NCBI RefSeq assembly: GCF_000340215.1
Contig: NW_006921532.1
Location: 1,963,337-2,027,336, forward strand
Direction of reading: 5' to 3'
DNA from: Pseudocercospora fijiensis CIRAD86
Lineage: Eukaryota; Ascomycota; Dothideomycetes; Mycosphaerellales; Mycosphaerellaceae
Length of the DNA: 64,000 nt
Position numbers and translations under genes: made by a program
Shown here: positions 1 to 63,728 of the stretch, one piece after another
Layout: each line of letters opens with the position of its first letter
How positions within the stretch are numbered: position 1 is the first letter of the stretch
The notes under the pieces: generated by a model
The model's input: the letters and a program-made list of their open reading frames with translations, nothing else
What the model was told of the DNA's origin: nothing
Database searches by the model: none

Positions 1-2456
1 GTTTTGCCAACTTCTATCGCCGATTTATTAAGGGCTATTCGAGGCATATAATGCTACTAACTAAGCTTACTAAAACTAAGGCCAACCCGACTAGAGAGTT
101 CAAATAGACTAACAGAGCACAAGCCGCTTTTAACGGTCTAAAGCAGCGCTTCACTAAGGTCCCCTTATTGCACTATTTTGTACTAAGTAAGCAGATCCGT
201 ATTGAGACTAACGCTTTACAGTTTGCTATATTAGCTATTATGTTACAATAGGCTAATAACAATTACTAGCACCCGATTGCCTTCTTCTCGAGGAAGATAA
301 TTAACGCTAAGCGTCGCTACGAGACCTACGAGTAAGAGCTCCTAGCTATTGTCGAGGCCTTTAAGCACTAGAGGCACTACCTCGATAGGGCTTAATATAT
401 AATATAGGTCTATATAGACTATAACAACCTCCGTAGCATCACTAAGGTTACTAGGGTTATAGGTCGACAGGCTAGATAGGCCGTCTACCTCGCCGGGTTT
501 AATTTTAATATATTATACCGGCTAGGCGTAAGTAACCCTACCGATAGCCTATCGAGGCGACCTGATTACGATAGCGAGACCTAACACATTAATTCTTTGT
601 TTCTAACCCTACAGTATAAGATTGCTATAGCCCGTATTGTTAATAAGCAAGCGCAGGATAAGCGGCTTACCGGACTCCGCGACGGCTTGAAGTATATTAA
701 TACTCTTGCTATATTAACAGTGCGTATTAAGGCAAGAGCTAAGGATATAGACAGGAGAAGTTATAATAACTCCCTAGTCGACATCGCAATATATAGTAAT
801 AGCGATAGTACTAATGCAGTTAATCCGGCTGCTAGTGCTATTAGATATATATAATGCGTACCTCGTTTAATAGCGAGGGTGCTATTAAATAACCTTGTAA
901 ATAGGGATAGTCAATCGTTTATAGATAAGCTATTACGGGCTCAGTAGAGGGACGCCTTTGCTGCTAAACGTATAGATAAGCTTGTAAGTAGGCGAAAGAC
1001 TCGATCTAGTAAGAGTAATTAGTCGATCGACGACAAAGGTCACTTAAGGTTCAAGGGCAGATACTATATCCCCGCTAAACATTCGATCCGATAAGAGCTT
1101 CTTAAGCGACACTATAATAGTAAGCTTGCCGGTCACTATAGTACAGAGAGGTCGTACGAGCTACTATCGCGTATATACTACTAGCTAAATAGTAAGCGGG
1201 ATATAAAGGACTACGTAAACACGTATGCCGTATGTTAACGAGTTAAAGTACTAAAGCACTTACTATTTAGCGAGTTGTCTTTACTCCCTATTCTAAAGAA
1301 GCTATTTGTAGAGCTTACAATAGACTTTATTATAGGCCTTCTACCTACTAAACGTAGGGGCAGTAAGGACATCTTCGATACTATCTTTGTTATAGTAGAT
1401 CGGTTTACTAAAGGCGCTCGATACATCCCGGCACGGAAGGACTAGACTGCTATTAATATAGCAGAGGCTCTATAGAGCAACATCTTCTATACCTATTAGG
1501 GGACCCCTAAGGGGATAGTCTCTAACCGGGGTACGATATTCACATCCTATTATTAGAGCGAGATATGCCTATAGCTAAGACTAAAGTATCGGCTATTAAC
1601 AGCCTTCTATCTATAGACTAACGGTTAAATAGAGAGGCAGAATGCTACCCTATAGCAGTACCTACGCAGTTACATTAACGAGAACCCTAGCGACTAGGTT
1701 AACCTCCTGTAGCCTGCAGAATTCGTGTATAACAATAGTGTACACTTATCCACTAAGGTTTTACTATATATAGCTATAATAGGCTAGAACGCCGCCTTAC
1801 TATAAGATCTATTCACCTCGCTCGAGGCCGAGCGTAAGGAAAGGGAAGCGCGTCAAGTACCCGAAATACTAGCGGCTATTAAGAGGGTTTAGAAGATGCG
1901 AGAAATCTATACTAAGATAGCCGAGAAGTTAATAAAGGCTTAAGAGTACTAAAAGACCTACTACGACAAGCACTATACGCTAATAACCTTTAAACAAGGC
2001 GACATAGTTATGCTAAGCACTAAGAACCTCCGTATCCGCAAACACCTATTACCTAATAGTAAAACAAGGCCCAAGCTCGCACTAAGATATATTAGCCTAT
2101 TTCGCATCCGAGAACCGAAGGGCAGTAGCTAGGCCTATTAGTTATAGCTTCTACCTTATTATACTATCTACGATACCTTCTATGTATCCCTCCTTAAGCC
2201 GTACTACCTACGCGAAGGGGATGAAGCCCCTATAGAATACGAAGATATACTAGCGGACGGTAAAGAGCTATAGTCTATAGAACGTATCTTGCAGTACCGG
2301 ACTAGGTAAGGCAAGAAGGAGTACCTGCTGAGATAGCAAGGCTATCTACCTAAATAGGACTCGTAGGAAGCTAAAGGTTCCTTTAAAGACATAACCGAGT
2401 TGTTAGATAAGTATTGGACTAGTATAAAGAACAAGAAGAAGGCTAAGGGCCTATAA
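1..2456 (+). pseudogene. Gypsy pol relic: RT end, RNase H, integrase, chromodomain
   Basis: Reading through RIP-type stops, the frame gives the RT thumb (FYRRFIKGYS), RNase H (HPIAFFSRK, RRYETYE, ELLAIVEAFKHxRHYL), the integrase zinc-binding and catalytic core (TIDFIIGLLPT, VDRFTKGARYIPA, TNGxxERQN), and a chromodomain-like end (ERILQYRTRxGKKEYLLRxQGY) before a TAA at 2454-2456. In life it would have made the polyprotein that copies and inserts the element, with the chromodomain guiding integration to heterochromatin. Dozens of premature TAG/TAA codons make it non-functional. The start lies outside the window. Confidence 0.88.
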
Positions 2457-6800: not shown

Positions 6801-7886
6801 GTATATAATGCTATCCTTGTTATAGTAGATCGATTTACTAAAGGCGCTCGATATATCCCGGCGCGCAAGGATTAGACTGCTATTAATATAGTAGAGGCGC
6901 TATAGACTAATATCTTCTATACCTATTAGGGAACCCCTAAGGGGATCGTATCCGATCGTAGATCGATACTAATATCTTACTATTAGAGCGAGATTTGCTT
7001 ACAGCTAAGACTAAAGCATCGGCTATTAATAGCCTTCTATCTACAGACTAACGGTTAAATAGAGAGGCAGAATGCTACCCTATAGCAGTACCTACGCAGT
7101 TACATTAACGAGAACCCTAACGACTAGGTCAACCTCCTATAACTAGCTAAATTCGTATACAATAATAGTGTCTACTTATCGACTAAGGTGTTACTATATA
7201 TAGCTATAATAGGCTAGAATGCTGCTATGCTATAAGACCTACTATCGCTCGAGGCCGAGCGTAAGGAAAGGGAAGCGCGTTAAGTACTAGAGATACTAGT
7301 AGCTATTAAGAGGGTTCAAAAGATGCGAGAAATTCACGCTAAGATAGCTAACAAACTAGCAAAGGCCTAGGCCTATTAGAAGGCCTACTATAAGAAATAC
7401 TATACGCTAATAACCTTTAAGCAAGGCGATATAGTTATGCTAAGTACGAAGAACCTCCGTATCCGTAAACACCTATTACCTAATAGCAAAATAAGGCCTA
7501 AGCTCGCACTAAGATACATTAGCCTATTCCGCATTCGAGAAGTTAAGGGCTCCTCCGTATAGGCCTATTAGTTGTAGCTTCTACCTTATTACACTATCTA
7601 TAATACCTTCTACGTATCCCTCCTTAAACTATACTACTAGCGCGAAGGCGATAAAGCGCCTACTAAGTTAGAAGAAGTCTTAGCTAATAGTAAAGAGCTG
7701 TAGTCTATAGAACGTATCCTAAAGCACCGGACTAGGCAAGGCAAGAAGGAGTACCTACTAAGATAGCAGGGCTATTTACTAGAATAGGACTTATAGGAGG
7801 CTAAAGACTCTTTTAAGGATATAACTGAGTTGTTAGACGAGTATTAGGCTAGTGTAAAGGACAAGAAGAAGGCTAAGAGGCTATAA
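3825..7886 (+). pseudogene. Gypsy pol relic: zinc knuckle, protease, RT, RNase H, integrase, chromodomain
   Basis: The frame, read across stops, shows a degraded CCHC knuckle (KYFNCN...GxCDKPKD), a retropepsin-like stretch (VILDLGNSVSALIS near 4095; family motif DSGA), then RT from about 4650 with LDIKDAYYRIRI and YLDNILVY. The second catalytic Asp of the YLDD box has become Asn, explained by TpG-to-TpA change on GATGAC. RNase H, integrase and chromodomain follow to a TAA at 7884-7886. The longest undamaged stretch, 4590-5018, is part of RT and not a separate gene. Confidence 0.88.
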
Positions 7887-20671: not shown

Positions 20672-20679
20672 CATCTTAC
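20672..20679. repeat. hAT target-site duplication, left copy (8 bp)
   Basis: CATCTTAC, repeated exactly at 30065-30072. Eight-base duplications are the hallmark of hAT transposons. The undisturbed site is visible in Gypsy 2 (ATATCTTACTATTAG near 6970). Confidence 0.85.
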
Positions 20680-20699
20680 TAGACCCCGCAGTAGTTCGG
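20680..20699 (+). repeat. hAT left terminal inverted repeat
   Basis: TAGACCCCGCAGTAGTTCGG; the partner at 30045-30064 differs only at base 10 (C versus T in the same orientation). Inside it, two copies of a TTTGGTTTG...TTTGCTAAGC-like block (to about 20752) form subterminal repeats, a usual site of hAT transposase binding. Confidence 0.8.
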
Positions 20700-20993
20700 G
20701 TTAGTTTAGTTTGGTTTGCTAAGCCGAAACTCTAGTTTGGTTTGGGTTAGTTTGCTAAGCAACCATATAAGTAGCTAGTTCGAACTATATAATTTATCGG
20801 TTTTTAAGAAGTGTACGAATGTATACGTAGCTTCAAGCAAGCCCTTTGTAAGACTTAGCAGTATAGCCGGTAGCGTAGCCGGCATTTTTAGTCCTTAGTA
20901 CTTATAGAATTTTCGAATCCTACTTAGGCTACGTAGTTGTATAAAGGTACTTATATAACTTAAATCTATAGACAATTAGCTAAGGGCACTAAC

Positions 20994-21030
20994 CAATCAA
21001 AAGTATATATATATATATATAAGGCATATA
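20994..21030. repeat. (AT)n microsatellite
   Basis: A run of about ten AT units centred at 21005-21022, also present at 54530-54551 in copy 2, slightly longer there. Confidence 0.7.
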
Positions 21031-21105
21031 GTCAGTTCGGAAACTGACTCCTTAGGTATGAATTCATCCTTTCGTTACGGTTCAATTCCCTAACTGCTTA
21101 GTAGA

Positions 21106-21641
21106 ATGTCTTATCTAGATCTAGGCAGAACTTATCGATTTCCCTAAAGTCTCCTCCTTAAGAAGTTATATACTTTCCTACCGAACCATTCGACAATATT
21201 AAGTACTAGGATAGCTCCTCCCTCGGTATCGGTATAGTATATAAAAGAGCTATAAGGCAGCTCTATAGAACGTTCTACTAGTTACTCGCTATACTAAGGC
21301 CGAATGCTAGTTCGTTCCTTAGAACTCTTAGTTATTTAGGAGATATAAAGGGTAGGGCAGGTAGTAACTTCGTATTATATAAGGAGGTAGAGGCTACTAT
21401 AGAAGAGGCCTTCAACCTATAGAAGATAGTAAAAGATATAGAGGCAGCTACAGGTCTAGGTATCTAGTTGAATTTTTAGTAGGTAGAGTATAAGGATATT
21501 TAGAGGGAGTATTAGGTAGAGTTACGAAGGCAGGTATATAATATGCTCTAGAAAACAGGGATAGTACCTATAACTATAACTATTAGGCTCTTTAACCTTC
21601 CTTATTTTTCCCTATTTTCTTTTTATAAAAATCTAAACTAA
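21106..21641 (+). pseudogene. Unidentified plus-strand gene of the hAT element (frameshifted copy)
   Basis: This corresponds to a frame of 180 codons at 54641-55180 in copy 2, which starts with an intact ATG and is broken only by TAG codons. Here several single bases are missing near its start (21106-21185), so the frame is lost. Recognisable stretches are GSNFVLYKEVEATIEEAFNL and KTGIVPITITIRLFN. It is the only gene on this strand of the element and I do not recognise the family. The predicted protein is helical and mildly acidic-basic mixed, with no signal peptide. Confidence 0.55.
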
Positions 21642-22051
21642 TACAAATCAACCGGAATGTCTATCTTCTTTTAGTTCTTTAAAAAACCTAGCAGCGTAGC
21701 TAGTAGCGTAGCCGGCAGCGTAGCCGGCAGCGTAGCCGGCCTTTTTACTCCTTAGTACTAACGGGATTTTAGGAGACTTCTATTCCGTACGGCTAATAAA
21801 GTATACTATACTATATATATATGCTTAGAGAGTATTTAGAGCGCGGTATATAGCGCCGTATAATAGCGGCTTATTTCGTATATAGAAAAGCTTGTAGATA
21901 ATACTACGAACATCCTTTCTACTAGAACATCTATCCTACCTAGCACCGTCTCGAATGTAGACATTCTAGCCTTTTAGAATCTGATCGAGTACTTTAAAAT
22001 CCTTGTCTATAATCGTTATACGCTTCGCGTAGATAGCTATAAGGTTAACCG

Positions 22052-22099
22052 CTAAAATAGTATTAGTATAGTCCGAAAAGAGGTAGAAGAGAAACATAC
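22052..22099 (-). other. Intron 2 of H3-like gene A (48 bp)
   Basis: It begins GTATGT, has a CTAAT branch-like sequence, and ends TTTTAG. Removing it joins FE to SVNLIAIYAKR, the same length as FEDTNLCAIHAKR in ordinary H3, strong evidence that it is a real intron. Confidence 0.8.
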
Positions 22100-22282
22100 A
22101 TTCGAAGATACGAACTAGGTAGGCTTCTATAGCCTCTTAAAGGGCGCCTATCGCGGAGGCTTAGAAGCGAAGGTCCGTTCTATAATCCTAGGCAATTTCG
22201 CGAACAAGTCGTTAGAAAGGAGTTTTACGGATTAGGAGCTAAGAACTCTTCTAATACTACCGAATCTTACGGAGGGCTACGG

Positions 22283-22373
22283 CTAAAGAAGGATTAGTAA
22301 AAAGATAGTAAGAATGCCGGCTACGCTACCGGCTACGCTGCCGGCTACGCTGCCGGCTATAAATAGGACTTAC
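22283..22373 (-). other. Intron 1 of H3-like gene A, with AGCCGGC array (91 bp)
   Basis: It begins GTAAGTCC, contains four consecutive AGCCGGC/AGCCGGT units spaced about 11 bases, then ACTAATCC, and ends TTTAG. Splicing turns GGA A + CC GTA into Gly-Thr-Val at the most conserved point before helix N of H3. Confidence 0.8.
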
Positions 22374-22849
22374 TTCCTAGGCGCTATCGACGCTTCGTAC
22401 GATTGCTACTAGTAGTAGAAGCGCTAGTTGTCGTCTTGCGTAGAGCCTTGCCCGCCGTTGTCTTACGCGGAGCCTTACTCGCGACGCCCTTTCTAGTACC
22501 GGAGCTAGCGGTAGTAGTAGCAGCCCTCTTGCGTTAATATACTATACTCGTTCCACTATTTCCGGTCTTGTTACGACCCGTAGAAGCACTAGGTCCCTTC
22601 TTGCGAGGCGTCGTAACTTAGTTAAGTAGACTCGCTATTATAAAAGTCGTCGAATTAAGGAAAAAAGTGCGTTACGAAGGTATACGAAGGCGCGCGCGGA
22701 GCGAGGGTATTGCGGAGGTAGTAGATATAGAGCGTAGAGGTATAGGTATCGATACGAAGGTTAAATATAGCGGTAATGTCGCGGTATCGCTAGGTAACAG
22801 AGTAAGCTTCGCGCAAGCCTATATTATAGTAACGTTAGAGTAAGGAAAG

Positions 22850-22910
22850 AAGGCAGGTACGGCTAAAAAAGGCAGGCACGGCTAAAAAAGGCAGGTACGG
22901 GAGACTTTGA
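22850..22910 (+). repeat. 19-bp tandem repeat upstream of H3-like gene A
   Basis: AGGCAGGTACGGCTAAAAA occurs twice and is followed by a partial third unit; copy 2 has four (from about 56415). It lies about 210 bases upstream of the H3-like A start and could be promoter sequence. Confidence 0.7.
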
Positions 22911-23169
22911 AATATAGCCGGCATATATAGCCGGTATAGTAATAGGCGAAAGCCTCCTTTTAATAAATAGCCGGCGTAATAATAGTATCTTACTATAGTA
23001 TAGATATTCTTTAGTAATGCCTTTACTAGCTATAGTAATCTTATAAGTAACCTAGGCCTATTGCTAGTAAATATAAGAAATATTAGGTAGGCTATACTAA
23101 ACAAGCTAGTTATTTAGTAAGAAAAGGCCTACTACCGTCTCTATATGCCGGCTACGAGTGCCGGCTATC

Positions 23170-23850
23170 GCTCTAAATTCAACTCCGCCCTATCTCGGAG
23201 GCTAAGGTACCGAGCGGAAACCCTATAGCTTATATTCACTCGGTTGTCGCGGAGCGCTTATAGGTAAGGTATTAGAAAAGAGTATAAAAAGTACAAGAAG
23301 AGTATCCTAGGATATAGGTCGTAAGTGAATAAGAGTAGTACGCCTAGTTATTTATATAGTACGTTACTCTATACGACTAAGAGCCTATATTATCTTATGC
23401 TTCGCTTATAAGACCTCGACTCTACTAGTATACTATCGATCTCTTCCTCGGTCGCTAATACGCTGTCTTAATTCTTCTTCGAGTTGCCGGACTTAGTATG
23501 TATCTATAGCTATATAATAGCGCTATACATTATAGAGAATTTCTCGTTAAAGTTTCTCTCTCGTAGGCTTGCTATCTGCCTCGTAGTACAGAGGATCAAA
23601 GTGCTAATACTAAAGAATCTCCTTATAGTTAGGATACTAGGGCTCCTTAGGACCTTTGTATTTTAGGTCTAAATAGAGACGTATTATAAACGTTCTATCG
23701 CCCTTTCGCTTACTACCCGCTAGGTCGCGATATGCGAAGAAACTAATCTAAATGTAGCTCGTCTCTATAATAGCCGAGTGAATATAGAGCGCTAGGTTTC
23801 TACTTCGTACCTTAGATTTAGGGACGGCGCGGAGATAAAATTAGAAATAT
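23170..23850 (-). pseudogene. Unidentified minus-strand ORF between the two H3-like genes
   Basis: One minus-strand frame is continuous apart from RIP-type stops: ALYIHSAIIETSYIxISFFAYRDLAGSK, then LDLKYKGPKEP, PLYYEADSKPTREKL, and a helical stretch (VRQLEEELRxRISDRGRDR). It is bounded on both sides by AGCCGGC motifs (23150s and 23860s). I do not recognise the family. Recombinase-like fungal domains came to mind, but no catalytic pattern can be shown. Part of it is duplicated in copy 2. Confidence 0.45.
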
Positions 23851-23930
23851 AGCCGGTACCTATAGCCGGTAAAAGGATGCGAAAATGGGCCTCCTCCTAG
23901 GTTAATCTAACGACTAAATACAATTTCTAA

Positions 23931-24524
23931 CTAATCCGCTATAAACCGACGCCGAATTTTAGCTAGAAGCTGTATATCTTTATTTTAAAGAGTAACCCGC
24001 TTCGTATAGATAGCAAGGAGGTTTAAAAGCTTAAGCTCGGTTACGAGAAATGCCTCCGTAGCTTCCTAAAGAGCACTAATCGCCTTAGCCGTAAATCGCA
24101 TACTAGACCGAAAATCTAATATAATTTCTCGGACAAGTCGCTAGAAGGGAGTCTTAGGGATTAAAAGCTCGGTCCCTCTTTTGTTTTAGAAAAGCCGGAT
24201 CTAGCGAAGGGCAATAGTACCTAGTTTAAAGCGCCGCTTCTTTGTCGTCGAGTCCTACCTTGTTCCCTTTCTTTTAATAGAAAGATAACTTTTCTTCGCG
24301 ATAGTCTTCGTCCGCCTACTCTTTTTAGCCTTCTCCTATCTATCTATAGCCTTCTTATTTTTCGGTACTGTTTTCCGAGGAACCCCCTTCCTTCGTATAT
24401 ACTACGGAGAGCCTTACTCTTCCGATATCTCGTTCTCGCTACGGTCTCCCTATACTTAGCTTGCTTTACCCTTGCCCTTTAGCCTCTAAAGATATTTATC
24501 TGCGCGTTTAGGCGACGAGGGCAT
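23931..24524 (-). pseudogene. Histone H3-like gene B of hAT copy 1
   Basis: A 198-codon single-exon frame with an intact ATG at 24524-24522 (MPSSPKRADKYL) and a TAG at 23933-23931. An N-terminal tail of about 101 residues rich in Lys and Arg (including RRKGVPRKTVPKNKKA) precedes a full H3 fold: RRFKLGTIALR, GTELLIPKTPFxRLVREI, LDFRSSMRFTAKAISAL, EATEAFLV, LAIYTKRVTL and NKDIQLLAKIRRRF. The order, spacing and PKTPFxRLVREI/DIQLLAKIR signatures are diagnostic of H3. The tail length is like that of centromeric H3 variants, but loop 1 lacks their usual insertion. All internal stops are TAG or TAA at Gln/Trp-type positions. It is clearly different from gene A, so not a simple duplicate. Confidence 0.9.
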
Positions 24525-24894
24525 ATCGGTAGGACCTAGAAAATTAATAAGCATATAATCGTAAGGAGATATTAATACTTCTTACCTTCTAGAATAAATA
24601 GTCTTCTATTAAACCGCCTTATTAGGTTATCGTTAGATTCGAATAAAGGATAGTAGCTTAAGGAAGGGGAGGTAGCCGGCTTAGGAAGGCCCGAAGAGCC
24701 GAATCCTTAAGGCATATTTGTCTTTAAGAATATAGGAAAAGGGAAGAAGGAGAGGAAGAGCGAATAGAGAATTAGAAATAGTCCGTAGGTAAGCGGGGTC
24801 GGTTACTATAGCAACTAGTCTGTTTAGGTCCTAGGAATTCGAAACACATTTCGGATATATACCGGCTATATATACCGGCTATATTACCTTATAC

Positions 24895-27800
24895 GTAAAC
24901 GCTTCGTCTCCTTAAAGCTGCTCTAAGCCTATATACGTTTCCGCTTCTCGACCCGGTATCGCCTTCTACCTCCGCCCTCCTCCTCTTCGTTATCGCTAAT
25001 TAGGGTTTCGCTTAGACTAAATTTCGCATTCTCTTCGCGCTCTTAGGTTTCTTCGATCTTAAGGTTTTCTAATTCCTCGATTAACTCCTTTAGTATAATC
25101 TTTAGTAACCTACCTTAGCGATTCTAGTAGAGGAGATAGTATCGGAATACTATAATAGATTCGAAGGTAGTAGGCGAGTATATTCGATTAAAGCGGCCCT
25201 AGTAACGAGCGATACTAAAAGACCTCTTATAGCCTATACCTACGCTCGGGATAGCGAGGACGTCCCGAGCGACCGACGCTATCGTTAGAAACTTAGGCTC
25301 TAACCGCTACTATATAGCGAGAATATCGTCTCCGAATTCGTCTAGAAGACCGGTAAGATCTAGAGATTATTAGCCCTCTTTCTGAGCCTACGGGTTTATA
25401 CTTACTTGCGCGCCGATAGAGATCGAACTCTTCTTTATTTACTTTAGTAGTTGCTTCCTCTTCTGCCTCTACTTCCTGCCTACGAAACAGGTATAATATC
25501 GGAGCCTTCTAAACCTTCTTTTTCTTTATAGGAGCTATATTTAGACTAGTTTCTTTCCGACGCTCGTAGAATATCTTTTCTAGAATAGTCTAGTAATACT
25601 TCGGCTATACCTCGTCCGCCTTCTATTCCGGCCTCTACTAGTATATATCCTTTTCTACCGGGTTAAGCAAGTACGCAACGCTATAGATATCCCCGAACGA
25701 GTTAAAGGTAGTACTATAATATTTATGCAACTTAGTATAGGAGGTATCTATAGCTTTCGTTATAGCTACTTTCTAGGGAACGCTCTTCTTAGCTAGCTTA
25801 GCTACGGTTTCCTCGAGCTCGTTAAAGAGCTAGTTATAGTACGTAAAGATAAGGTAGATCGTCGGTCCTCGGGTTCTTCTAATCGTAGTAGTAACCTTCG
25901 CGTAATGCTTACTAATATCGACGAGATACTCTACTTAGCGCTATTCGGCGGCGGTAAGGCCGAGCTACTTAATGCCCTCGGAACTCTAATAGATCTCGAG
26001 AGCGGTACGTAAAGTATATCCCCTCGTAACTATATAGAAAGTCGAATCGAACCGGGTCTTAACGTCTTAGGTAAAACGGAGTAGGCGCTAAGGAGGCCGC
26101 TTTTACTATCGCTTATTCTATGCGATATTCTAGGCATCGGTTTTAGGGCGCTCGATTAGGTTCTTTTAAATAGCCTCGAATCGGTTATATCTCTATAAGC
26201 TCGAGTTCGTATATATTGCTAGACGACGAAGCTAGAGAAAAAGAGTTAGAACTATACTAGGTTACCGGCTATAGGTGCCGGCTACGGACAAAAGTTATAC
26301 CTTATATAAAACGAGAGCGAGGCTCTCTGCCTTATCCCGTCTTATTACTATAATAAGTTTCTCGACTTTCGACTTTGCTTTATCCTTATCTAGGATCTTC
26401 TATTAGTCGTCGTTTAATAGTGCAATTTTAAGCATCTTAAAGAGGGCTCGGATCGCGATTTAAACTATATAAGCGAGGTAGGGAAACTTCTATAGGGATG
26501 TAACTAGTAACGACGTCGGCTCCGATTTAATAGGGCTAGGGCTATTAATAGGCTCCTCTTTATCGTTATTATCGTGCGTATTGTCGTGCGTATCCGGAAT
26601 CGTAGCGAGCTTAATATTCGGAAGATTAAGCTAGATTGTAGACCTTATAATCTCCTCTACGTACTCGACCCTATCGATACAATTAGTAATTTTAAAGACA
26701 TATACGAGTAAATTGTATATACAACGCCTTATACAATGTTCGATTATTACTAGCGTTGTCCGTAGTAATCGAGATCAGTTTCGTTGTTACGCTAACCCTA
26801 TCTATTGCCGTATAGACAAGCTTCGCTATATCCTTACTAGTATAGGAACCTAGAATTTCAGGGAATCCGATTATAAGTTCCTAGAGTTTCTAATCCGAAT
26901 TAATAAAGTATAGCATAATCGAGAGGAAGGAGGCTCTTATAGTCCGGCTTAACTAGCTATCGATAGCAATAGCTACTTAGCGAGTATTACGGAGGATCTC
27001 CCGAATGTCGTCTAACGCAGCCTCTTTGTTCTTTTTAAACATAATACGCTAGGTTATCGCGCCGAGAAATAGGGGAGGGTAGTTTGTAAGATATAGGTAT
27101 ATCTTCTATATAGACTCCCTTTCGTAGAAGTCTTCCGGAAGACCGTTTATAGCTAGCATTTCGTTTGCTAGTTGCTTAAAGTCTTCGGGGGAGAAATCGG
27201 TAGCCTTTAATCCTAGAGCTTCCTTAAGCGTAGCCTATAATAATTAGCTAGATCTCTACGGTTAATTTAGGTAGCCGGAATCTATAGCCGGCAGCTGTAG
27301 CCGGTAGCTATAGCTAGCATTTTAGAAGACATACCTCTTTCTAGAACGCTATATCTATATCAACTCTCCTCTCTCCTTAAGATTCCCGATACTGTTTAGA
27401 ATAGAGATAGTTCGTAGGCGATAAGTTCCTATCCCCTAGTTTCGGGTGTTTTAAGATTAAACCGTAGAAGTTATAGATAATTACTAGTTAACCTTTAAGT
27501 CGAGAAGTCGTATAACGGTGTAATGCCCCCTCTAGAAAGAACTTCTAGAATGTGTCCGTTCGCTCCTTACTCCCCTATCGTATCGAGTACTTCCGGAGTT
27601 TACGCTCCTTCGAACGTAAGTATAAAGGGAACTATATCTTATAGACCTATTAATTGAACTGCTCTATATACTCGGGTTTCTAAAGATACGCCTAGCTAGC
27701 CTTTTCGAAGATTTCCGGGTTAATACTCGATGTTCTTATATCTCCGAACAACCTTCTACTTAGACTCCGTAAAGGTAAGGACTAGGTAGTAGTACCCTAT

Positions 27801-28080
27801 AATAAATTCCTACTACTAGGATTCGGAGAGGATAAATCTAGCCCTAATCGTAGTCTAGGACTCGATAGGCTCGAAGGTAAGTATACGACCTCCTCTCGAC
27901 GTTGTCGCAATCTCGCTCGTATACTAGACTGTTTCGACTATCGTCTCGTTATTACCCTTCCTAGTATAGCGCCTAGTGTATATACAATGTCGGTCGGCAT
28001 GTTTTAAGGTTTCGTACGGTAAGGTAAGGACTTAGGAGTAGTAGATGTATACTAGTAGCTATAGAGAAACACCCTTTCTT
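24895..28080 (-). pseudogene. hAT transposase of copy 1
   Basis: The minus-strand frame has the hAT core: YFINSDxKLxELIIGFPEILG, then VSVTTKLISITTDNASNNRTL (the ITxDNASNN signature, about 26730-26800), DVKTRFDSTFYIVTRGYTLR (TRWNST-type), KYYSTTFNSFGDIYSVAYLLNP, and the C-terminal dimerisation region LTIASVARDVLAIPSVGIG with YKRSFS. It ends in an acidic then basic tail (RRRYRVEKRKRI, about 24950). Introns are predicted at 26232-26300 and around 27260-27345, both with GT...AG ends and both containing AGCCGGC-like motifs. Upstream coding-like sequence to about 28080 is probably the N-terminal, DNA-binding part, but no BED finger can be shown. Inactivated by RIP stops. Confidence 0.85.
26232..26300 (-). 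other. Predicted transposase intron with GCCGGC motifs (69 bp)
   Basis: GTATAAC at the 5' end, two GCCGG-containing units (AGCCGGC, AGCCGGT) in the middle, and TTCTCTAG at the 3' end. Both flanking exons stay in the transposase frame (…LVLYK | LRRLAIYTNS…). Confidence 0.75.
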
Positions 28081-28129
28081 TTATAGCATCGTATCGTTAG
28101 GAATAGCTAGACAGTAAATAGCTAGCTAC

Positions 28130-28240
28130 CTTTTTTTTTGTTTCCTAGCTACCTAACTACTAGATTTTTTTTCCTAGCTACCCTAGCTAGCCTAACTACT
28201 AGAATTTCTTTCCTAGCTATCCTAACTACCTAAATTTTGC
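28130..28240 (-). repeat. Short tandem repeat near transposase start
   Basis: Three to four variants of a unit containing CCTAGCTACC-TAACTACTAGA-TTTTTT. Also at 62085-62190 in copy 2. On the minus strand it would read as basic Val/Arg-rich peptide or as leader sequence. Confidence 0.6.
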
Positions 28241-28269
28241 CTTCTATACGGCGGCTCTCTCCTACTAAC

Positions 28270-29590
28270 GGAACCGAGCTACTATACCTAACGAATCTAA
28301 GCTCGTTTTTAGTCTTAATCTATCCTCTTTCGGTATAAGATACTCGATAAGCAAATGCTTAGGCCGAGTCTAACTACGAGACCTAAGACTAACTAATAGC
28401 TCTATTAACTAATCCTAATCCTCGAACTCCTTCCGCTTCTTAGTAAAGACCTTAAAGAGCGCTCGAGCTTCTTCGGGTACCTACGGAGTAGTCGAGATAA
28501 AGCCGTATCGCTAAAATAGGTAATCCTTCGGAGGCTTATATAGAGATTTAGAGAATTCTAACGCTAACCTATCCTACTAGTAGCTTAGATTCCGGATACA
28601 AGCCCTCTCTACCTTAGTAAAGATTTTATATAGTAGTAGCACTCTGCCTTCGAGAAACGCTTTCTATTTAACTGTTAGTATCTACCGGCTACGAACGCCG
28701 GCTATATATGCCGAGTATAGAATAATTACCTATACCCCTTCCTCCTATAGTAACACTTCTACCGTCCCTAGATACCTAGCCCCGATCGCATTAATCGCAA
28801 GCTACTTTGCCTTTATAAACGTAAAGGCTTCGCTCTAATACTAATAAAGAAACTTCTACTCTATATCGAGGATATAAAGACGACTAGTCTCGATTCCAAT
28901 CCTTACTAGCTTTTCGTAGTAGCTTTAACTATGATTTTCTAGATTAATAGGACTTATACCTTAGCCCTTTACTAGTATCTCGTCTCTTTGACTATACTCG
29001 ATCTACTCCTAGCGCTTATCGTCTATAGCGTTAGGCCCTAAGACTGCACCTGTTACTAGATCGACGTATAGTATCTCCTCGCTTTTTTCAGTTCCTTTAT
29101 TCGTAGTATTAAGCTCTGTCGCGGCATCCTAAACTCTAGTATTGTTGTTCTCGGCTATCTAAACATCTCCGTTACTATCGGTCGTATCGATAGAGGTAGC
29201 GGCTATAGGTCTAAATACTATTAGTTAACGTATTAAAGAAAAATATGCCGGCTATAGCTGCTAGCTACGGCCGCTAGCTAGATTGACTTACGCTACTAGA
29301 ACTTTACGCTCGAAAACTAGCCGCAATTCTTTCCTCCTCTTAGCCTTCTCTTAGGTTGTCTTCTTATTCTAACCTTTACTTTTTTCTATAGGCGCTAGCT
29401 ATCGATAGAATGCCTTATTCCGCGCCTTTCTTCTCTTATCCTTAGCTCTTTTATCCTTATCTATCTTGTCCTTTCTCTCGCGGTCTCGTACGGAATTCTT
29501 CTTCGTAGAGTACTCCTCTTTAGTCTTGCGCTTTTTAGTTAGACGCTTAGGCAAAACAAACTCGCGGTCTTTAGTTCTATCTTCTGTTTA
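28270..29590 (-). pseudogene. Unidentified minus-strand gene at the right side of hAT copy 1
   Basis: Three coding-like blocks on the minus strand are separated by predicted introns that contain GCCGGC motifs (about 29225-29300, from GTAAGTC to TAACTAATAG; and about 28675-28740, ending TACTAACAG). The first block is very basic (LPKRLTKKRKTKEEYSTKK, ERKDKIDKDKRAKDKRRK). The second contains SEEILYVDLVTGAVLGPNAI and VRIGIETSRLYILDIE. The third has KPPKDYLF and PEEARALFKVFTKKRKEFED. I do not recognise the family; a nuclear protein is suggested only by the basic start. Confidence 0.5.
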
Positions 29591-29754
29591 GCGCGCGGCG
29601 CGCTTCTCTCTTACTATTGTAAGGGAAAGGGGCGGGGGCGTAGCGTATAGTAGTTATTGTTAGTATAGGTATAGAGGAAGAAGTTAAAAGTGTAAGAATA
29701 TCGCGAAGCCCTAATTGTTGCCGCCTACGTAACGTTATATAGGTAAGCTTTCGC

Positions 29755-29842
29755 AACTACGGCAACTACGCCCTAGCAATAGCAACTACGCCCTAGCAAC
29801 GGCAACTACGCCCTAGCAACGGCAACTACGCCCTAGCAACGG
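29755..29842 (+). repeat. 20-bp minisatellite in hAT copy 1
   Basis: About four units of CAACTACGCCCTAGCAACGG. Copy 2 has a matching array at 63729-63823 plus an extra block at 63904-63946. Confidence 0.8.
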
Positions 29843-30044
29843 TAATAAAGCGTAGTAAATACAACCTAGTAACTATTATAGCCGGCAATCGTAGCCGGTA
29901 GTCGAATAAGAGTGTCCTTATAGTAAAACTAATACAGTCTCTAGTTCAAACTAGGAATCTATATAGTTCGAAAAAACCAAACCGGAACTAGGGAGCTAGT
30001 TCGCCGCTAAGAAACCAAACTATATACGTTTGGTAGTTCGGAAA

Positions 30045-30064
30045 CCGAACTACTACGGGGTCTA
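30045..30064 (-). repeat. hAT right terminal inverted repeat
   Basis: Reverse complement reads TAGACCCCGTAGTAGTTCGG, one mismatch from the left end. The target duplication CATCTTAC follows at 30065-30072. Confidence 0.8.
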
Positions 30065-30072
30065 CATCTTAC

Positions 30073-54204: not shown

Positions 54205-54640
54205 TAGACCCCGCAGTAGTTCGGGTTGGTTTGGTTTAGTTTGCTAAGCCGAAACTCTGGTTTAGTTTAGGTTGGTTTGCTAAGCAACTATATAAGTAGC
54301 TAGTTCGAACTATATAATTTATCGGTTTTTAAGAAGTGTACGAATGTATACGTAGCTTTAAGCAAGCCCTTTGTAAGACTTAGCAGTGTAGCCGGCAGCG
54401 TAGCCGGCATTTTTAGTCCTTAGTACTTATAGAATTTTCGAATCCTACTTAGGCTATATAGTTGTATAAAGGTACTTATATAACCTCAAATCTATAGACA
54501 ATTAGCTAAGGGCACTAACTAATTAAAAGTATATATATATATATATATATAAGGCATTATAGTTCAGTTCGGAAACTGCACTCCTTAGGTATGAATTTCA
54601 TCCTTTCGTTTACGGTTCAATTCCCTAACTGCTTAGTAGA

Positions 54641-55180
54641 ATGTCTTTATCTAGATCTAGGCAGAACTTATCGATTTCCCTAGAAGTCCTCCTCCTTAAG
54701 AAGTTTATATACTTTCCTACCGAACCATTCGACAATATTAAGTACTAGGATAGCTCCTCCCTCGGTATCGGTATAGTATATAAAAGAGCTATAAGGCAGC
54801 TCTATAGAACGTTCTACTAGTTACTCGCTATACTAAGGCCGAATGCTAGTTCGTTCCTTAGAACTCTTAGTTATTTAGGAGATATAAAGGGTGGGGCAGG
54901 TAGTAACTTCGTATTGTATAAGGAGGTAGAGGCTGCTATAGAAGAGGCCTTCAACCTATAGAAGATAGTAAAAGATATAGAGGCAGCTATAGGTCTAGGT
55001 ACCTAGTTGAATTTTTAGTAGGTAGAGTATAAGGATATTTAGAGGGAGTATTAGGTAGAGTTGCGAAGGCAGGTATATAATATGCTCTAGAAAACAGGGA
55101 TAGTGCCTATAACTATAACTATTAGGCTCTTCAACCTTCCTTATTTTTCCCTGTTTTCTTTTTATAAAAATCTAAACTAA
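54641..55180 (+). pseudogene. Unidentified plus-strand gene of hAT copy 2
   Basis: An ATG-to-TAA frame of 180 codons interrupted only by TAG codons of RIP type. It begins MSLSRSRQNLSISLEVLLLKK. Later stretches are KRAIRQLYRTFY, SSFLRTLSYLGDIKGGAGSN, YKEVEAAIEEAFNL and KTGIVPITITIRLFNLPYF. It has no signal peptide or catalytic signature and I do not recognise it. Copy 1 has lost the frame through several single-base deletions. Confidence 0.55.
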
Positions 55181-55474
55181 TACAAATTAACCGGAATGTC
55201 TATCTTCTTTTAGTTCTTTAAAAAACCTAGCAGCGTAGCTAGTAGCGTAGCCGGCAGCGTAGCCGGCAGCGTAGCCGGCCTTTTTACTCCTTAGTACTAA
55301 CGGGATTTTAGGAGACTTCTATTCCGTACGGCTAATAAAGCATACTATACTATGTATATATACTTAGAGAGTATTTAGAGCGCGGTATACAGCGCCGTAT
55401 AATAGCGGCTTATTTCGTATATAGAAAAGCTTACAGATAACACTACGAATATCCTTTCTACTAGAACATCTATC

Positions 55475-56204
55475 CTACCTAGTACCGTCTCGAATATAGA
55501 CATTCTAGCCTTTTAGAATCTGATCGAGTGCTTTGAAATCCTTATCTATAATCGTTATACGCTTCGCGTAGATAGCTATAAGGTTAACCGCTAAAATAGT
55601 ATTAGTATAGTCCGAAAAGAGGTAGAAGAGAAACATACATTCGAAGATACGAACTAGGTAGGCTTCTATAGCCTCTTAAAGGGCGCCTATCGCGGAGGCT
55701 TAGAAGCGAAGGTCCGTTCTATAATCCTAGGCAATTTCGCGAATAAGTCGTTAGAAAGGAGTTTTGCGGATTAGGAGCTAAGAACTCTTCTAATACTACC
55801 GAATCTTACGGAGGGCTACGGCTAAAGAAGGATTAGTAAAAAGACAGTAAGAATGCCGGCTACGCTGCCGGCTACGCTACCGGCTACGCTACTAGCTATA
55901 AATAGGACTTACTTCCTAGGCGCTATCGACGCTTCGTACGATTGCTACTAGCAGTAGAAGCGCTAGTTGTCGTCTTACGTAGAGCCTTACCCGCCGTTGT
56001 CTTACGCGGAGCCTTGCCCGCTATTGTCTTACGCGGAGCCTTACTCGCGACGCCCTTTCTAGTACCGGAGCTAGCGGCAGTAGTAGCAGCTATCTTACGT
56101 TAATATATTATACTCGTTCTACTATTTCCGATCTTATTACGACCCGTAGAAGTAGCAGGTCCCTTCTTACGAGGCGTCGTAACTTAGTTAAGTAGACTCG
56201 CTAT
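55475..56204 (-). pseudogene. Histone H3-like gene A of hAT copy 2
   Basis: The same structure as 21936-22638: a basic tail with repeated KAPRK-like motifs, one extra KTIAGKAPRK-like tail unit compared with copy 1 (about 56010-56045), then an intron with AGCCGGC motifs and the H3 fold. The damage differs at scattered transition sites, so the two copies can be used to infer the original sequence. Confidence 0.85.
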
Positions 56205-56414
56205 TATAAAAGTCGTCGAATTGAGGAAAAAAGTGCGTTACGAAGGTATACGAAGGCGCGCGCGGAGCGAGGGTATTACGGAGGTAGTAGATATAGAGCG
56301 TAGAGGTATAGGTATCGATACGAAGGTTAAATATAGCGGTAGTGTCGCGGTGTCGCTAGGCAACAGAGTAAGCTTCGCGTAAGCCTACATTATAGTAACG
56401 TTAGAGCAAGGAAA

Positions 56415-56485
56415 GAAGGCAGGCACGGCTAAAAAAGGCAGGTACGGCTAAAAAAGGCAGGTACGGCTAAAAAAGGCAGGTACGG
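56415..56485 (+). repeat. 19-bp tandem repeat, copy 2
   Basis: Four units of AGGCAGGTACGGCTAAAAA or close variants; one more than in copy 1. Confidence 0.7.
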
Positions 56486-56778
56486 CAGACTTTGAAATAT
56501 AGCCGGTATATGTAGCCGGTATAGTAATAGGCGAAAGCCTCCTTTTAATAAATAGCCGGCGTAATAATAGTATCCTACTATAGTATAGATATTCTTTAGT
56601 AATGCCTTTACTAGCTATAGTAATCTTATAAGTAACCTAGGCCTATTGCTAGTAAATATAAGAAATATCAGGTAGGCTATACTAAATAAGCTAGTCATTT
56701 AGTAGGAAAAGGCCTACTACCGTCTCTATATGCCGGCTACGAGTACCGGCTACGAGTGCCGGCTATCGCTCTAAATTT

Positions 56779-57484
56779 AACTCTGCCCTATCTCGGAGGC
56801 TAAGGTACCGAGCGGAAACCCTATAGCTTATATTTACTCGGTTGTCGCGGAGCGCTTATAGGTGAGGTATTAGAAAAGAGTATAAAAAGTACGAGAAGAG
56901 TATCCTAGGATATAGGTCGTAAGTGAATAAGAGTAGCACGCCTAGTTATTTATATAGTACGTTACTCTATACGACTAAGAGCCTATATTATCTCGTGCTT
57001 CGCTTATAAGACCTCGACTCTACTAATATACTATTATTCTCCTACTCGGTCGCTGTCTTAAATCTTCTTCGAGTTGCCGGACTTAGTACGCATCTATAGC
57101 TATGCAATAGCGCTACGTATTATAGAGAATCAACTCCGCCGTATCTCGAAGGCTAAGGTACCGAGCGGAAATCCTATAGCTTATATTCACTCGGTTATCG
57201 CGGAGCGATTATAGGTAAGGTATTAGAAAAGAGTATAAAAAGTACGATAAGAGTATCCTAGGATATAGGTCGTAAGTGAATAAGAGTAGTACGCCTAGTT
57301 ATTTATATAGTACGTTACTCTATACGACTAAGAGCCTATATTATCTTATGCTTCGCTTATAAGACCTCGACTCTACTAGTATACTATCGATCTCCTCCTC
57401 GGTCGCTAATACGCTATCTTAATTCTTCTTCGAGTTGCCGGACTTAGTGCGCATCTATAGCTATATAATAGCGCTACGCATTAT
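56779..57484. repeat. 353-bp tandem duplication inside hAT copy 2
   Basis: The block beginning CTATCTCGGAGGCTAAGG is repeated 353 bases later and ends ATTATAGAGAAT in both. Copy 1 has a single block. The first block has a small internal deletion (…TATTCTCCTACTCGGTCGCTGTC…). It duplicates the C-terminal part of the unidentified minus-strand ORF. Confidence 0.8.
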
Positions 57485-57815
57485 AGAGAATTTCTCGTTA
57501 AAGTTTCTCTCTCGTAGGCTTGCTATCTGCCTCGTAGTATAGAGGATCAAAGTGCTAATGCTAAAGAATCTCCTTATAGTTAGGATGCTAGGGCTCCTTA
57601 GGACCTTTATATTTTAGGTCTAAATAGAGACGTATTATAAACGTTCTATCGCCCTTTCGCTTACTACCCGCTAGGTCGCGATATGCGAAGAAACTAATCT
57701 AAATATAGCTCGTCTCTATAAGAGCCGGGTAAATATAGAGCGCTAGGTTTCTACTTCGTACCTTAGATTTAGGGACGGCGCGGAGATAAAATTAGAAATG
57801 TAGCCGGCACCTATA
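56780..57815 (-). pseudogene. Unidentified minus-strand ORF of hAT copy 2, with duplicated end
   Basis: Counterpart of 23170-23850, enlarged by the 353-bp duplication. The motifs YEADSKPTREKL and LEEELRxRISDRG are recognisable. No family assigned. Confidence 0.45.
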
Positions 57816-57881
57816 GCCGGTAAAAGGATGCGAAAATGGGCCTCCTCCTAGATTAATCTAACGACTAAATACAATTTCCAA

Positions 57882-58475
57882 CTAATCCGCTATAAACCGA
57901 CGCCGAATTTTAGCTAGAAGCTATATATCTTTATTTTAAAGAGTAACCCGCTTCGTATAGATAGCAAGGAGGTTTGAAAGCTTAAGCTCGGTTACGAGAA
58001 ATGCCTCCGTAGCTTCCTAAAGAGCACCAATCGCCTTAGCCGTAAATCGTATACTAGACCGAAAATCTAATATAATTTCTCGGACGAGTCGCTAGAAGGG
58101 AGTCTTAGGGATTAAAAGCTCGGTCCCTCTTTTGTTTTAGAAAAGCCGGATCTAGCGAAGGGCAATAGTACCTAGTTTAAAGCGCCGCTTCTTTATCGTC
58201 GAGTCCTACCTTATTCCCTTTCTTTTAATAGAAAGATAACTTTTCTTCGCGATAGTCTTCGTCCGCCTACTCTTTTTAGCCTTCTCCTATCTACCTATAG
58301 CCTTCTTGTTTTTCGGTACTGTTTTCCGAGGAACCCCCTTCCTTTGTATATACTACGGAGAGCCTTGCTCTTCCGATATCTCGTTCTCGCTACGGTCTCC
58401 CTATACTTAGCTTACTTTACCCTTGCCCTTTAGCCTCTAAAGATATTTATCTACGCGTTTAGGCGACGAGGGCAT
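57882..58475 (-). pseudogene. Histone H3-like gene B of hAT copy 2
   Basis: Exactly the same length (198 codons) as 23931-24524, with the ATG intact at 58475-58473 and the final TAG at the same place. H3 blocks (KTPFxRLVREI, RFTAKAISAL, EATEAFLV, NKDIQLLAKIRRRF) are preserved. No indels have accumulated, only RIP-type changes. Confidence 0.88.
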
Positions 58476-58844
58476 ATCGGTAGGACCTAGAAAATTAATA
58501 AGTATATAATCGTAGGGAGACATTAATGCTTCTTACCTTCTAGAACAAATAGTCTTCTATTAAACCGCCTTATTAGGTTATCGTTAGATTCGAATAAAGG
58601 ATAGTAGCTTAAGGAAGGGGAGGTAGCCGGCTTAGGAAGGCCCGAAGAGCCGAATCCTTAAGGCATATTTATCTTTAAGAATATAGGGAAAGGGAAGAAG
58701 GAGAGGAAGAGCGAATAGAGAATTAGAAATAGTCCGTAGGTAAGCGGGGTCGGTTGCTATAGCAACTAGTCTGTTTGGGTCCTAGGAATTCGAAACACAT
58801 TTCGGACATATGCCGGCTATATACGCCGGCTATATTACCTTATA

Positions 58845-61800
58845 CGTAAACGCTTCGTCTCCTTAAAGCTGCTCTAAGCCTATATACGTTTCCGCTTCTC
58901 GACCCGGTATCGCCTTCTACCTCCGCCCTCCTCCTCTTCGTTATCGCTAATTAGGGTTTCGCTTAGACTAAATTTCGTATTCTCTTCGCGCTCCTAGGTT
59001 TCTTCGATCTTAAGGTTTTCTAATTCCTCGATCAACTCCTTTAGTATAATCTTTAGTAACCTACCTTAGCGATTCTAGTAGAGGAGATAGTATCGGAATA
59101 CTATAATAGATTCGAAGGTAGTAGGCGAGTATGTTCGATTAAAGCGGCCCTAGTAACGAGCGATACTAAAAGACCTCTTATAGCCTATACCTACGCTCGG
59201 GATAGCGAGGACGTCCCGAGCGACCGACGCTATCGTTAGAAACTTAGGCTCTAACCGCTGCTATATAGCGAGAATATCGTCTCCGAATTCGTCTAGAAGA
59301 CCGGTAAGATCTAGAGATTATTAGCCCTCTTTCCGAGCCTACGGGTTTATACTTACTCGCGCGCCGATAGAGATCGAACTCTTCCTTATTTACTTTAGTA
59401 GTTGCTTCCTCTTCTGCCTCTACTTCCTACCTACGAAATAGGTATAATATCGGAGCCTTCTAAACCTTCTTTTTCTTTGTAGGAGCTGCATTTAGACTAG
59501 TTTCTTTCCGACGCTCGTAGAATATCTTTTCTAGAATAGTCTAGTAATGCTTCGGCTATACCTCGTCCGCCTTCTATTCCGGCCTCTACTAGTATATATC
59601 CTTTTCTACCGGGTTAAGCAAGTACGTAACGCTATAGATATCCCCGAACGAGTTAAAGGTAGTACTGTAATATTTATACAACTTAGTATAGGAGGTGTCT
59701 ATAGCTTTCGTTATAGCTACTTTCTAGGGAACGCTCTTCTTAGCTAGCTTAGCTACGGTTTCCTCGAGCTCGTTAAAGAGCTAGTTATAGTACGTAAAGA
59801 CAAGGTAGATCGTCGGTCCTCGGGTTCTTCTAATCGTAGTAGTAACCTTCGCGTAATGCTTACTAATATCGACGAGATACTCTACTTAGCGCTATTCGGC
59901 GGCGGTAAGGCCGAGCCACTTAATACCCTCGGAACTCTAATAGATCTCGAGAGCGGTACGTAAAGTACATCCCCTCGTAACTATATAGAAAGTCGAATCG
60001 AACCGGGTCTTAACGTCTTAGGTAAAACGGAGTAGGCGCTAAGGAGGCCGCTTTTGCTATCGCTTATTCTATGCGATATTCTAGGCATCGGTTTTAGGGC
60101 GCTCGATTAGGTTCTTTTAAATAGCCTCGAATCGGTTATATCTCTATAAGCTCGAGTTCGTATATATTGCTAGACGACGAAGCTAGAGAAAAAGAGTTAG
60201 AATTATACTAGGTTGCCGGCTATAGGTGCCGGCTACGGATAAAAGTTATACCTTATACAAAACGAGAGCGAGGCTCTCTGCCTTATCCCGTCTTATTGCT
60301 ATAATAAGTTTCTCGACTTTCGACTTTGCTTTATCCTTATCTAGGATCTTCTATTAGTCGTCGTTTAATAGTGCAATTTTAAGCGTCTTAAAGAGGGCTC
60401 GGATCGCGATTTAAACTATATAAGCGAGATAGGGAAACTTCTATAGGGATATAACTAGCAACGACGTCGGCTCCGATTTAATAGGGCTAGGGCTATTAAT
60501 AGGCTCCTCTTTATCGTTATTATCGTACGTATTGTCGTGCGTATCCGGAATCGTAGCGAGCTTAATATTCGGAAGATTAAGCTAGATTATAGACCTTATA
60601 ATCTCCTCTACGTACTCGACCCTATCGATATAATTAGTGATTTTAAAGATATATGCGAGTGAATTGTATATACAACGCCTTATACAATGTTCGATTATTA
60701 CTAGCGTTGTCCGTAGTAATCGAGATCAGTTTCGTTATTACGCTAACCCTATCTATTACCGTATAGACAAGCTTCGCTATGTCCTTACTAGTATAGGAAC
60801 CTAGAATTTTAGGGAATCCGATTATAAGTTCCTAGAGTTTCTAATCCGAATTAATAAAGTATAGCATAATCGAGAGGAAGGAGGCTCTTATAGTCCGGCT
60901 TAACTAGCTATCGATAGCAATAGCTACTCGGCGAGTATTACGGAGGATCTCCCGAATGTCGTCTAACGTAGCCTCTTTGTTCTTTTCGAATATAATACGC
61001 TAGGTTATCGCGCCGAGAAATAGGGGAGGGTAGTTTGTAAGATATAGGTATGTCTTCTATATAGACTCCCTTTCGTAGAAGTCTTCCGGAAGACCGTTTA
61101 TAGCTAGCATTTCGTTTGCTAGTTACTTAAAGTCTTCGGGGGAGAAATCGGTAGCCTTTAATCCTAGAGCTTCCTTAAGCGTAGCCTATAATAATTAGCT
61201 AGATCTCTACGGTTAATTCAGGTAGCCGGAATCTGTAGCCGGCAGCTATAGCCGGCAGCTATAGCCGGCATTTTAGAAGATATACCTCTTTCTAGAACGC
61301 TGTATCTATATTAACTCTCCTCTCTCCTTAAGATTCCCGATACTGTTTAGAATAGAGATAGTTCGTAGGCGATAAGTTCCTATCCCCTAGTTTCGGGTGT
61401 TTTAAGATTAAACTATAGAAGTTGTAGACAATTACTAGTTAACCTTTAAGTCGAGAAGTCGTATAACGGTACAATGCCCCCTCTATAAAGAACTTCTAGA
61501 ATGTGTCCGTTCGCTCCTTACTCCCCTATCGCATCGAGTACTTCCGGAGTTTATACTCCTTCGAACGTAAGTATAAAGGGAACTATATCTTATAGACCTA
61601 TTAATTAAACTGCTCTATATACTCGGGTTTCTAAAGATACGCCTAGCTAGCCTTTTCGAAGATTTCCGGGTTAATACTCGATGTTCTTATATCTCCGAAC
61701 AACCTTCTGCTTAGACTCTATAAAGGTAAGGACTAAGTAGTAGTACCCTATAATGAATTCCTACTACTAGGATTCGGAGAGGATGAATCTAGCCCTAATC

Positions 61801-62030: not shown

Positions 62031-62219
62031 TTTATAGCATCGTATCGTTAGGAATAGCTAGGCAGTAAATAGCTAGCTACCTTTTTTTTTTGTTTCCTAG
62101 CTACCTAACTACTAGATTTTTTTTCCTAGCTACCCTAGCTAGCCTAACTACTAGAATTTCTTTCCTAGCTACCCTAACTACCTGAATTTTGCCTTCTATA
62201 CGGCGGCTCTCTCCTACTA

Positions 62220-63568: not shown

Positions 63569-63728
63569 GCGCGCGGCGCGCTTCTCTCTTACTATTATAA
63601 GGGAAAGGGGCGGGGGCGTAGTATATAGTAGTTATTGTCGGTATAGGTATAGAGGAAGAAGTTGAAAGTGTAAGAATATCGCGAAGCCCTAATTGTTGCC
63701 GCCTACGTAACGTTATATAGGTAAGCTT

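Follow-up and report, generated by a model that had tools for sequence, protein, structure and literature searches.

The window analysed here, a stretch of 64,000 nucleotides from Pseudocercospora fijiensis CIRAD86 (contig NW_006921532.1), contains two copies of a hAT-type transposable element, each with two different histone H3-like genes, H3L-1 and H3L-2. The element is best read (probability about 0.68) as a dead copy of a described Mycosphaerellaceae hAT family in which two paralogous H3-like genes would have been resident, H3L-1 with three exons and H3L-2 with one, and which was later killed by repeat-induced point mutation. It is very probably the P. fijiensis H3-hAT family of Dhillon et al. 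2019 (PMC6710886). The element is therefore already known as an object, and for one of its two histone genes the published account as a retrocopy has to be corrected. In the course of events proposed, a living element spreading by its own transposase would have carried both genes as lasting residents, with H3L-1 spliced from three exons and originating in an intron-bearing H3 gene. The family would have split into at least three subfamilies, both H3 genes in each, before repeat-induced point mutation killed it.

Both genes are predicted to have the H3-type histone fold. The profile search that had been proposed as a check by the sequence-only reading, an earlier commentary made from the letters of this DNA, was performed with stops given as X. 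Pfam Histone (PF00125) matched H3L-1 at 4e-18, over part of the core and with the introns left in, and H3L-2 at 1.8e-22, across tail and core. The claim of two different H3-like genes on the minus strand was thus upheld. The best PDB match of H3L-2 was histone H3 (1.9e-26). A CENP-T match to H3L-2 was sub-threshold (E 0.0074, 16.8 bits, cut-off 28.1), and no homologue of H3L-2 was found at E 1e-5 in a collection of 5.8 billion proteins (86 candidates), a search limited by the X at stops and perhaps by the make-up of the collection.

The genome (73,937,190 bases, 30 contigs) was searched for further copies. The left end of the element gave 40 scored matches among 665 candidates. Of the 30 left-end loci taken, the window copy among them, 29 ran on into H3L-1, the exception being L016, and L013 was partial; none of these loci is long enough to extend to H3L-2. 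Searching with Pfam Histone gave 150 scored matches among 772 candidates. Four to seven stops were present in 148 of these 150, and the two stop-free matches are host H3 (contig C6) and host centromeric H3 (CenH3; contig C5). Each of eight longer loci (L061-L068) held the two H3-like regions, with their order unchanged throughout. As they were chosen from the Histone matches, the presence of H3L-2 in them is by selection and the adjoining H3L-1 is the independent result. Three subfamilies were apparent: A, comprising the window copies and L066 (95-96%); B, comprising L067 and L068 (83-92%); and C, comprising L061-L065 (70-86%), the percentages being for matched segments. In L063 another end sequence cuts near the end of H3L-1, and L063 differs there.

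The second copy in the window has its own target site duplication, GGTAGCTA, spans 54205-64165 with both ends present (9,961 bp, slightly above the published 9.5-9.9 kb) and holds the same two H3-like genes in the same order as copy 1. It was therefore independently inserted, as had been supposed from the sequence, and with the eight loci, picked though they were from Histone matches, it places the histone cargo with the element family in all three subfamilies. Copy 2, unlike copy 1, has an internal tandem duplication of ~360 bp near 57130 (window ~56770-57490).

Removal of 22373-22283 and 22099-22052 from H3L-1 gave ...RLGTVALRKIR... and ...FESVNLIAIYAKR..., both of which keep the register of host H3. 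The donor, branch and acceptor of the two segments are of fungal type. A rule combining these three signals was fitted on the minus strand of the element by one of 9,337 stretches of 48 nt and one of 9,294 stretches of 91 nt, and by none on the plus strand; the rule was written after both intron segments had been seen, the segments themselves being defined by the H3 alignment. The shorter segment has the length of the published 16-residue insertion, which on this evidence looks like a 48-nt intron. Ten copies (the two window copies and the eight longer loci) were aligned across the introns. The donor of intron 1, GTAAGT, was present in 10/10. The length of intron 1 ranged from 69 to 116 nt with all residues modulo 3 represented, and the tail exon measured 235, 265, 280, 292 or 295 nt, lengths which are equal modulo 3. 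The intron of host H3 lies at G44 in phase 1 and intron 1 of H3L-1 at T45 in phase 1, thus one codon apart with the phase shared. Two introns, the first so close to that of host H3 and in the same phase, indicate that H3L-1 is no processed retrocopy, and splicing from three exons would mean descent from an intron-bearing H3 gene. For intron 2, the branch and AG were kept in all 28 subfamily-A loci spanning it. Among these loci, L002 shows seven T-to-C differences from copy 1 within 23 nt of intron 2 that take in its donor and pyrimidine tract. The rest of the A loci read T there, apart from a single C particular to L005, and L065, of subfamily C, has some C in the tract.

Transversions alone were counted in comparing the subfamilies, as repeat-induced point mutation makes none, with each subfamily represented by one copy. 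The selection tests were post hoc and uncorrected, and the pairs are not independent. In the transposase, A-C transversions numbered 36/1050 at first and second codon positions versus 33/525 at third positions (p 0.013); the same test on a further coding-like region gave p 0.06. Evolution of H3L-1 is unusually fast. Its first and second positions had 25/326 transversions between A and B, about six-fold more than those of the transposase (13/1046, p 3e-8) and more than fourfold sites pooled across genes (20/486, p 0.04); between A and C the figures were 39/346 for H3L-1 and 33/449 for the pooled fourfold sites (p 0.06). By codon position, the H3L-1 core gave 8/87, 8/87 and 15/87 (A-C) and 11/87, 5/87 and 9/87 (A-B), and the tail 9/86, 14/86 and 4/86 (A-C) and 1/76, 8/76 and 5/76 (A-B). 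The H3L-2 core gave 5/90, 3/90 and 6/90 (A-C) and its tail 10/102, 10/102 and 11/102, numbers too small to be decisive. When H3L-1 was compared with H3L-2, third positions exceeded first and second positions in 4/4 pairs (p 0.013, 0.042, 0.049 and 0.06). A control comparison of host H3 with host CenH3 gave p 5.5e-7.

Indels in the H3L-1 tail came in threes in seven of seven cases in the three-way alignment, these being pairwise counts which are not independent. Over all coding segments indels in threes made up 5/6 (A-B), 6/10 (A-C) and 5/10 (B-C), and in non-coding sequence 11/40, 14/53 and 10/41, respectively. The coding indels that were not in threes comprised one A-C and one B-C in H3L-2, a frameshift in L065, with the rest in the transposase and the further coding-like region.

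However, several results weigh against the reading of the element as carrier of a spliced H3L-1 and a conserved pair. The intron 2 donor in the 28 subfamily-A loci was GT in 13, AT in 14 and GC in one, and GT was found in 0/7 copies of subfamilies B and C and not in L066 either. Given this loss of the donor, we infer intron 2 in B, C and L066. A TG-to-TA mutation would yield the AT donors. Transversions between A and C were fewer in the introns than in the exons (0/48 in intron 2 and 1-2/~90 in intron 1, including the minisatellite described below), which would be unusual for introns that vary freely. The constraint on H3L-2 between subfamilies was not significant (core A-C 8/180 at first and second versus 6/90 at third positions; p 0.31 and 1), nor was the codon-position difference between the H3L genes and host H3 in six comparisons (p 0.055-0.34). 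The replacement rate of H3L-1, at or above the fourfold rate, is also compatible with relaxed constraint.

All statements on cited papers refer to the parts of them available. PMC6710886 describes a P. fijiensis hAT family with 784 H3-like copies in 471 elements, full-length elements of 9.5-9.9 kb with 20-bp ends and an 8-bp duplication, CpA-to-TpA mutation, and two H3-like sequences of which the second has a 16-residue insertion, with host H3 on scaffold 6. Its authors concluded that an intron-free H3 transcript had been captured, and those parts report neither introns in the copies nor a further domain in the element. The element studied here is alike in its 8-bp duplication, 20-bp ends, size of ~9.5 kb and CpA-to-TpA mutation, in having two H3-like sequences, one of them with the 16-residue (48-nt) insertion, and in the spread of mutated copies over a genome whose intact host H3 lies on contig 6. 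The present account differs in taking the insertion as an intron, in a second intron between tail and core, in the paralogy of the H3 genes, in the subfamilies and in the additional coding-like region. Neither introns in the H3 genes of this element nor their paralogy are described in the literature consulted, in the parts available, and no further report was found.

A smaller relative, a 5.6-kb hAT of Pyrenophora tritici-repentis (PMC3538342), likewise has, between inverted ends, a hAT transposase, an open reading frame whose function is unknown and a gene for an H3-like protein, which has tail insertions and is described as neither H3 nor CenH3. It differs in having a single H3 gene, which is mostly intact and has expressed sequence tags. 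PMC6710886 reports no nucleotide similarity between the Pyrenophora and P. fijiensis elements. The sequence-only reading had known of no hAT element with such a cargo. With one family and a relative already in print, this view did not hold and a novel element was ruled out. Repeat R25 of Stagonospora (Phaeosphaeria) nodorum (PMC3017866) is also a mutated repeat with similarity to H3 and weak similarity to DNA transposons, but that paper assigns its origin to an endogenous gene region. Fungal DNA transposons carrying TET/JBP, including hAT7 (PMC12730594), resemble the present element in being of hAT type and in having acquired an extra gene whose product acts on epigenetic marks; the gene is another one and the duplications are of 7 bp, thus this is an analogy only.

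As judged from their sequences, H3L-1 and H3L-2 are paralogues and not two copies of one sequence: in subfamily A the core identity is 68% between H3L-1 and host H3, 58% between H3L-2 and host H3 and 58% between the two genes. They may have been captured independently, one from genomic sequence and the other as a retrocopy for instance, and not have arisen by duplication inside the element. The introns in H3L-1 and their absence from H3L-2 would suit this, and an approximately unbiased (AU) test did not reject separate origins (p 0.25, 0.16). On the other hand the best tree unites the two genes (ultrafast bootstrap 92, ~90 residues; L033 stood for H3L-2 of subfamily C in the tree and identity comparison, that of L065 being frameshifted), and at the Leu position of the host KLPF motif both carry T or A. 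Independent capture is thus possible without being probable. That one of the two is the CenH3 of the element is very improbable. H3L-2 has AFLV like host CenH3, a long tail and an extended C-terminus, as do some CenH3. However, neither gene has the loop-1 insertion, where host CenH3 has four extra residues, and identity to host CenH3 (57% for H3L-1, 54% for H3L-2) is not above that to host H3; a CenH3 identity was not supported, the loop-1 result lowering its likelihood. H3L-1 of subfamily A is nearer to host H3 than H3L-1 of B and C (54-55%), though over the whole element A and B form the closest pair, which may reflect either quicker change in B and C or local exchange.

The published explanation, passive transduplication, in which a captured host H3 transcript multiplied as a passenger and soon decayed into a pseudogene with no function for the element, is backed by the analysis of its authors (PMC6710886), by the absence of an intron from H3L-2, a feature expected of a processed retrocopy, and by replacement transversions in H3L-1 that are not below the fourfold rate between A and B. 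It is at odds with the two intron-like segments and splice signals of H3L-1, with the paralogy of the genes and with H3L-1 tail indels in threes across three subfamilies, and is considered unlikely as a whole. In another explanation, the genes would form an accessory pair serving the element: variant H3s placed in the chromatin of the host would weaken silencing or the mutation process, and an arms race would have put H3L-1 under diversifying selection. The joint presence of both genes in the subfamilies and the replacement rate of H3L-1 relative to transposase and fourfold sites point this way, as do the published TET/JBP dioxygenase-encoding transposons (PMC12730594) and the mostly intact, transcribed Pyrenophora gene (PMC3538342). 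Against it, these comparisons were selected after the data had been seen, local recombination between subfamilies could lift divergence everywhere (in the H3L-1 core the third positions also run high, at 9/87 for A-B and 15/87 for A-C), and the H3L-2 and H3L-1 cores are not significantly different (A-C, first and second positions, 8/180 versus 16/174, p 0.09). Such an arms race can be proposed only tentatively. Rather doubtful, too, is that they were true accessory genes, a fast intron-bearing variant and a slower one which jointly altered host chromatin so that the element fought silencing with its own histones.

We return to the reading of a dead hAT copy with two resident, paralogous H3-like genes. 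Beyond the anatomy, subfamilies, length pattern and substitution counts, which are observed, we infer that both genes were probably expressed as proteins in the living element, H3L-1 after splicing. As two histone paralogues stayed in the element for long, it is conceivable that they had some role for it. The likeliest use, put forward as a tentative suggestion, would be that variant H3 entered host nucleosomes and disturbed silencing to the benefit of the element; otherwise the genes were passengers. The interpretation of the sequence-only reading is partly supported, its chromatin role being a possible one. If it is true that H3L-1 has introns and that the pair was kept through the subfamily splits, the two would be candidate histone variants encoded by a transposon, and species in which copies are intact would allow a test of why H3 genes are carried by hAT elements in two fungal orders (Capnodiales and Pleosporales, according to the papers).

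Copy 1 begins and ends with inverted sequences, TAGACCCCG(C/T)AGTAGTTCGG, starting at 20680 and, in the opposite orientation, reaching 30064. It is bordered on both sides by a perfect 8-bp target site duplication, CATCTTAC. The same window holds two related repeats with the insertion site unoccupied, which are 81-85% identical to the flanks of copy 1; thus the ends and duplication described from the sequence alone were confirmed. At 9,385 bp, copy 1 is slightly below the published size. Its minus-strand order, from right to left, is the further coding-like region, the transposase pieces, H3L-2 and H3L-1. Coordinates are collected below.

Features of the two element copies and related sequences in the window (positions counted from the first nucleotide of the window)
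Feature	Position	Strand	Remarks
Target site duplication, left	20672..20679	.	CATCTTAC
Terminal inverted repeat, left	20680..20699	+	
H3L-1, H3-like, long variable tail, stop-broken	21966..22638	-	putative exons 22638-22374, 22282-22100, 22051-21966; end 21966 or, in the sequence-only reading, 21936
H3L-1 intron 2 (putative), loop 2	22052..22099	-	48 nt; GTATGT...CTAAT...TTTTAG
H3L-1 intron 1 (putative), tail/core border	22283..22373	-	91 nt; GTAAGT...CTAAT...TTTAG; GCCGGC minisatellite inside; length varies among copies
H3L-2, single-exon H3-like gene, stop-broken	23931..24524	-	tail of ~100 residues
hAT-type transposase, in pieces	24962..27231	-	27231-26715, 26090-25448, 25372-24962
Dimerisation-like stretch of transposase	~25399-25070	-	reads alike in 7/8 loci; L064 out of frame there
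Further coding-like region, function unknown	28290..29605	-	pieces 29605-29302, 29185-28720, 28640-28290
Terminal inverted repeat, right	30045..30064	-	
Target site duplication, right	30065..30072	.	CATCTTAC
Related repeat, insertion site unoccupied	1512..1600 (approx.)	.	
Related repeat, insertion site unoccupied	6942..7030 (approx.)	.	
Second element copy	54205..64000	+	own duplication GGTAGCTA; true end position-equivalent 64165, beyond the window
H3L-1 of copy 2	55505..56204	-	ends derived from exon lengths; both introns present, donors 55912 and 55638
H3L-2 of copy 2	57882..58475	-	placed by sequence match with copy 1; core matched by Pfam Histone

The transposase is the weakest part of the identification; both the ends and the 8-bp duplication are in keeping with hAT. 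Terminal inverted repeats are present as in the hAT superfamily, and among four copies checked the hAT-type 8-bp duplication was perfect in copy 1, copy 2 and L068 and imperfect in L065 (GTAACTTG/GTTACTAG). The transposase has TDNASNN and RFDST-like motifs, which we take to resemble those of hAT. Pfam Dimer_Tnp_hAT (PF05699) matched it at E 0.0092 and 16.2 bits, below the cut-off of 21.4, and a longer read-through at E 0.084. Hence, of the hAT transposase claimed in the sequence-only reading, the affiliation by ends and duplication stood and the profile match remained sub-threshold. Pfam gave no hAT profile match on the other pieces and frames of the window and no DUF659 match among the window pieces; TNP-like_RNaseH_N was sub-threshold on one piece (E 0.13). 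PF04937 (DUF659) was found at 21 places in the genome, and the three fetched (L072-L074) were without blastn similarity to the element. In the collection of 5.8 billion proteins no homologue at E 1e-3 was found for the transposase (7,995 scored) or the further coding-like region (3,197), both searches having the limits given for H3L-2, and the transposase had no match among solved structures up to E 1. Matches to hAT dimerisation domains lie in long frames at C2:4666571-4666819 (805 residues, match stop-free) and C6:3122626-3122874 (809 residues, one TAG in the match), so that the genome seems to have further hAT elements with less damage.

Strong repeat-induced point mutation was evident in the dinucleotides of the element (TA/AT 1.89; (CA+TG)/(AC+GT) 0.28). 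The frames are broken, the element stretch having one open reading frame of at least 60 residues, and the copies seen are dead. On the plus strand, Pfam gave no credible match to the frames at 20980-21700 and 22900-23930 (best E 0.16, under the cut-off), and no codon-position pattern was found at 21270-21620 in the A-B comparison. The minisatellite motif GCCGGC occurs at 17 sites in the element (e.g. 22316-22352, 26277, 28697 and 29247) versus 0.7 expected from base composition. All lie in introns and spacers outside the coding segments, these segments having been set with the motif in view. Elsewhere in the window, 33001-53000 is GC-rich (~49-56%), and the dinucleotides at ~36000-52000 bear few marks of repeat-induced mutation, in contrast to those of the flanks, which are AT-rich. 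Finally, a strong AT skew (0.24-0.37) was observed over ~5 kb to the left of the element (15001-20000).

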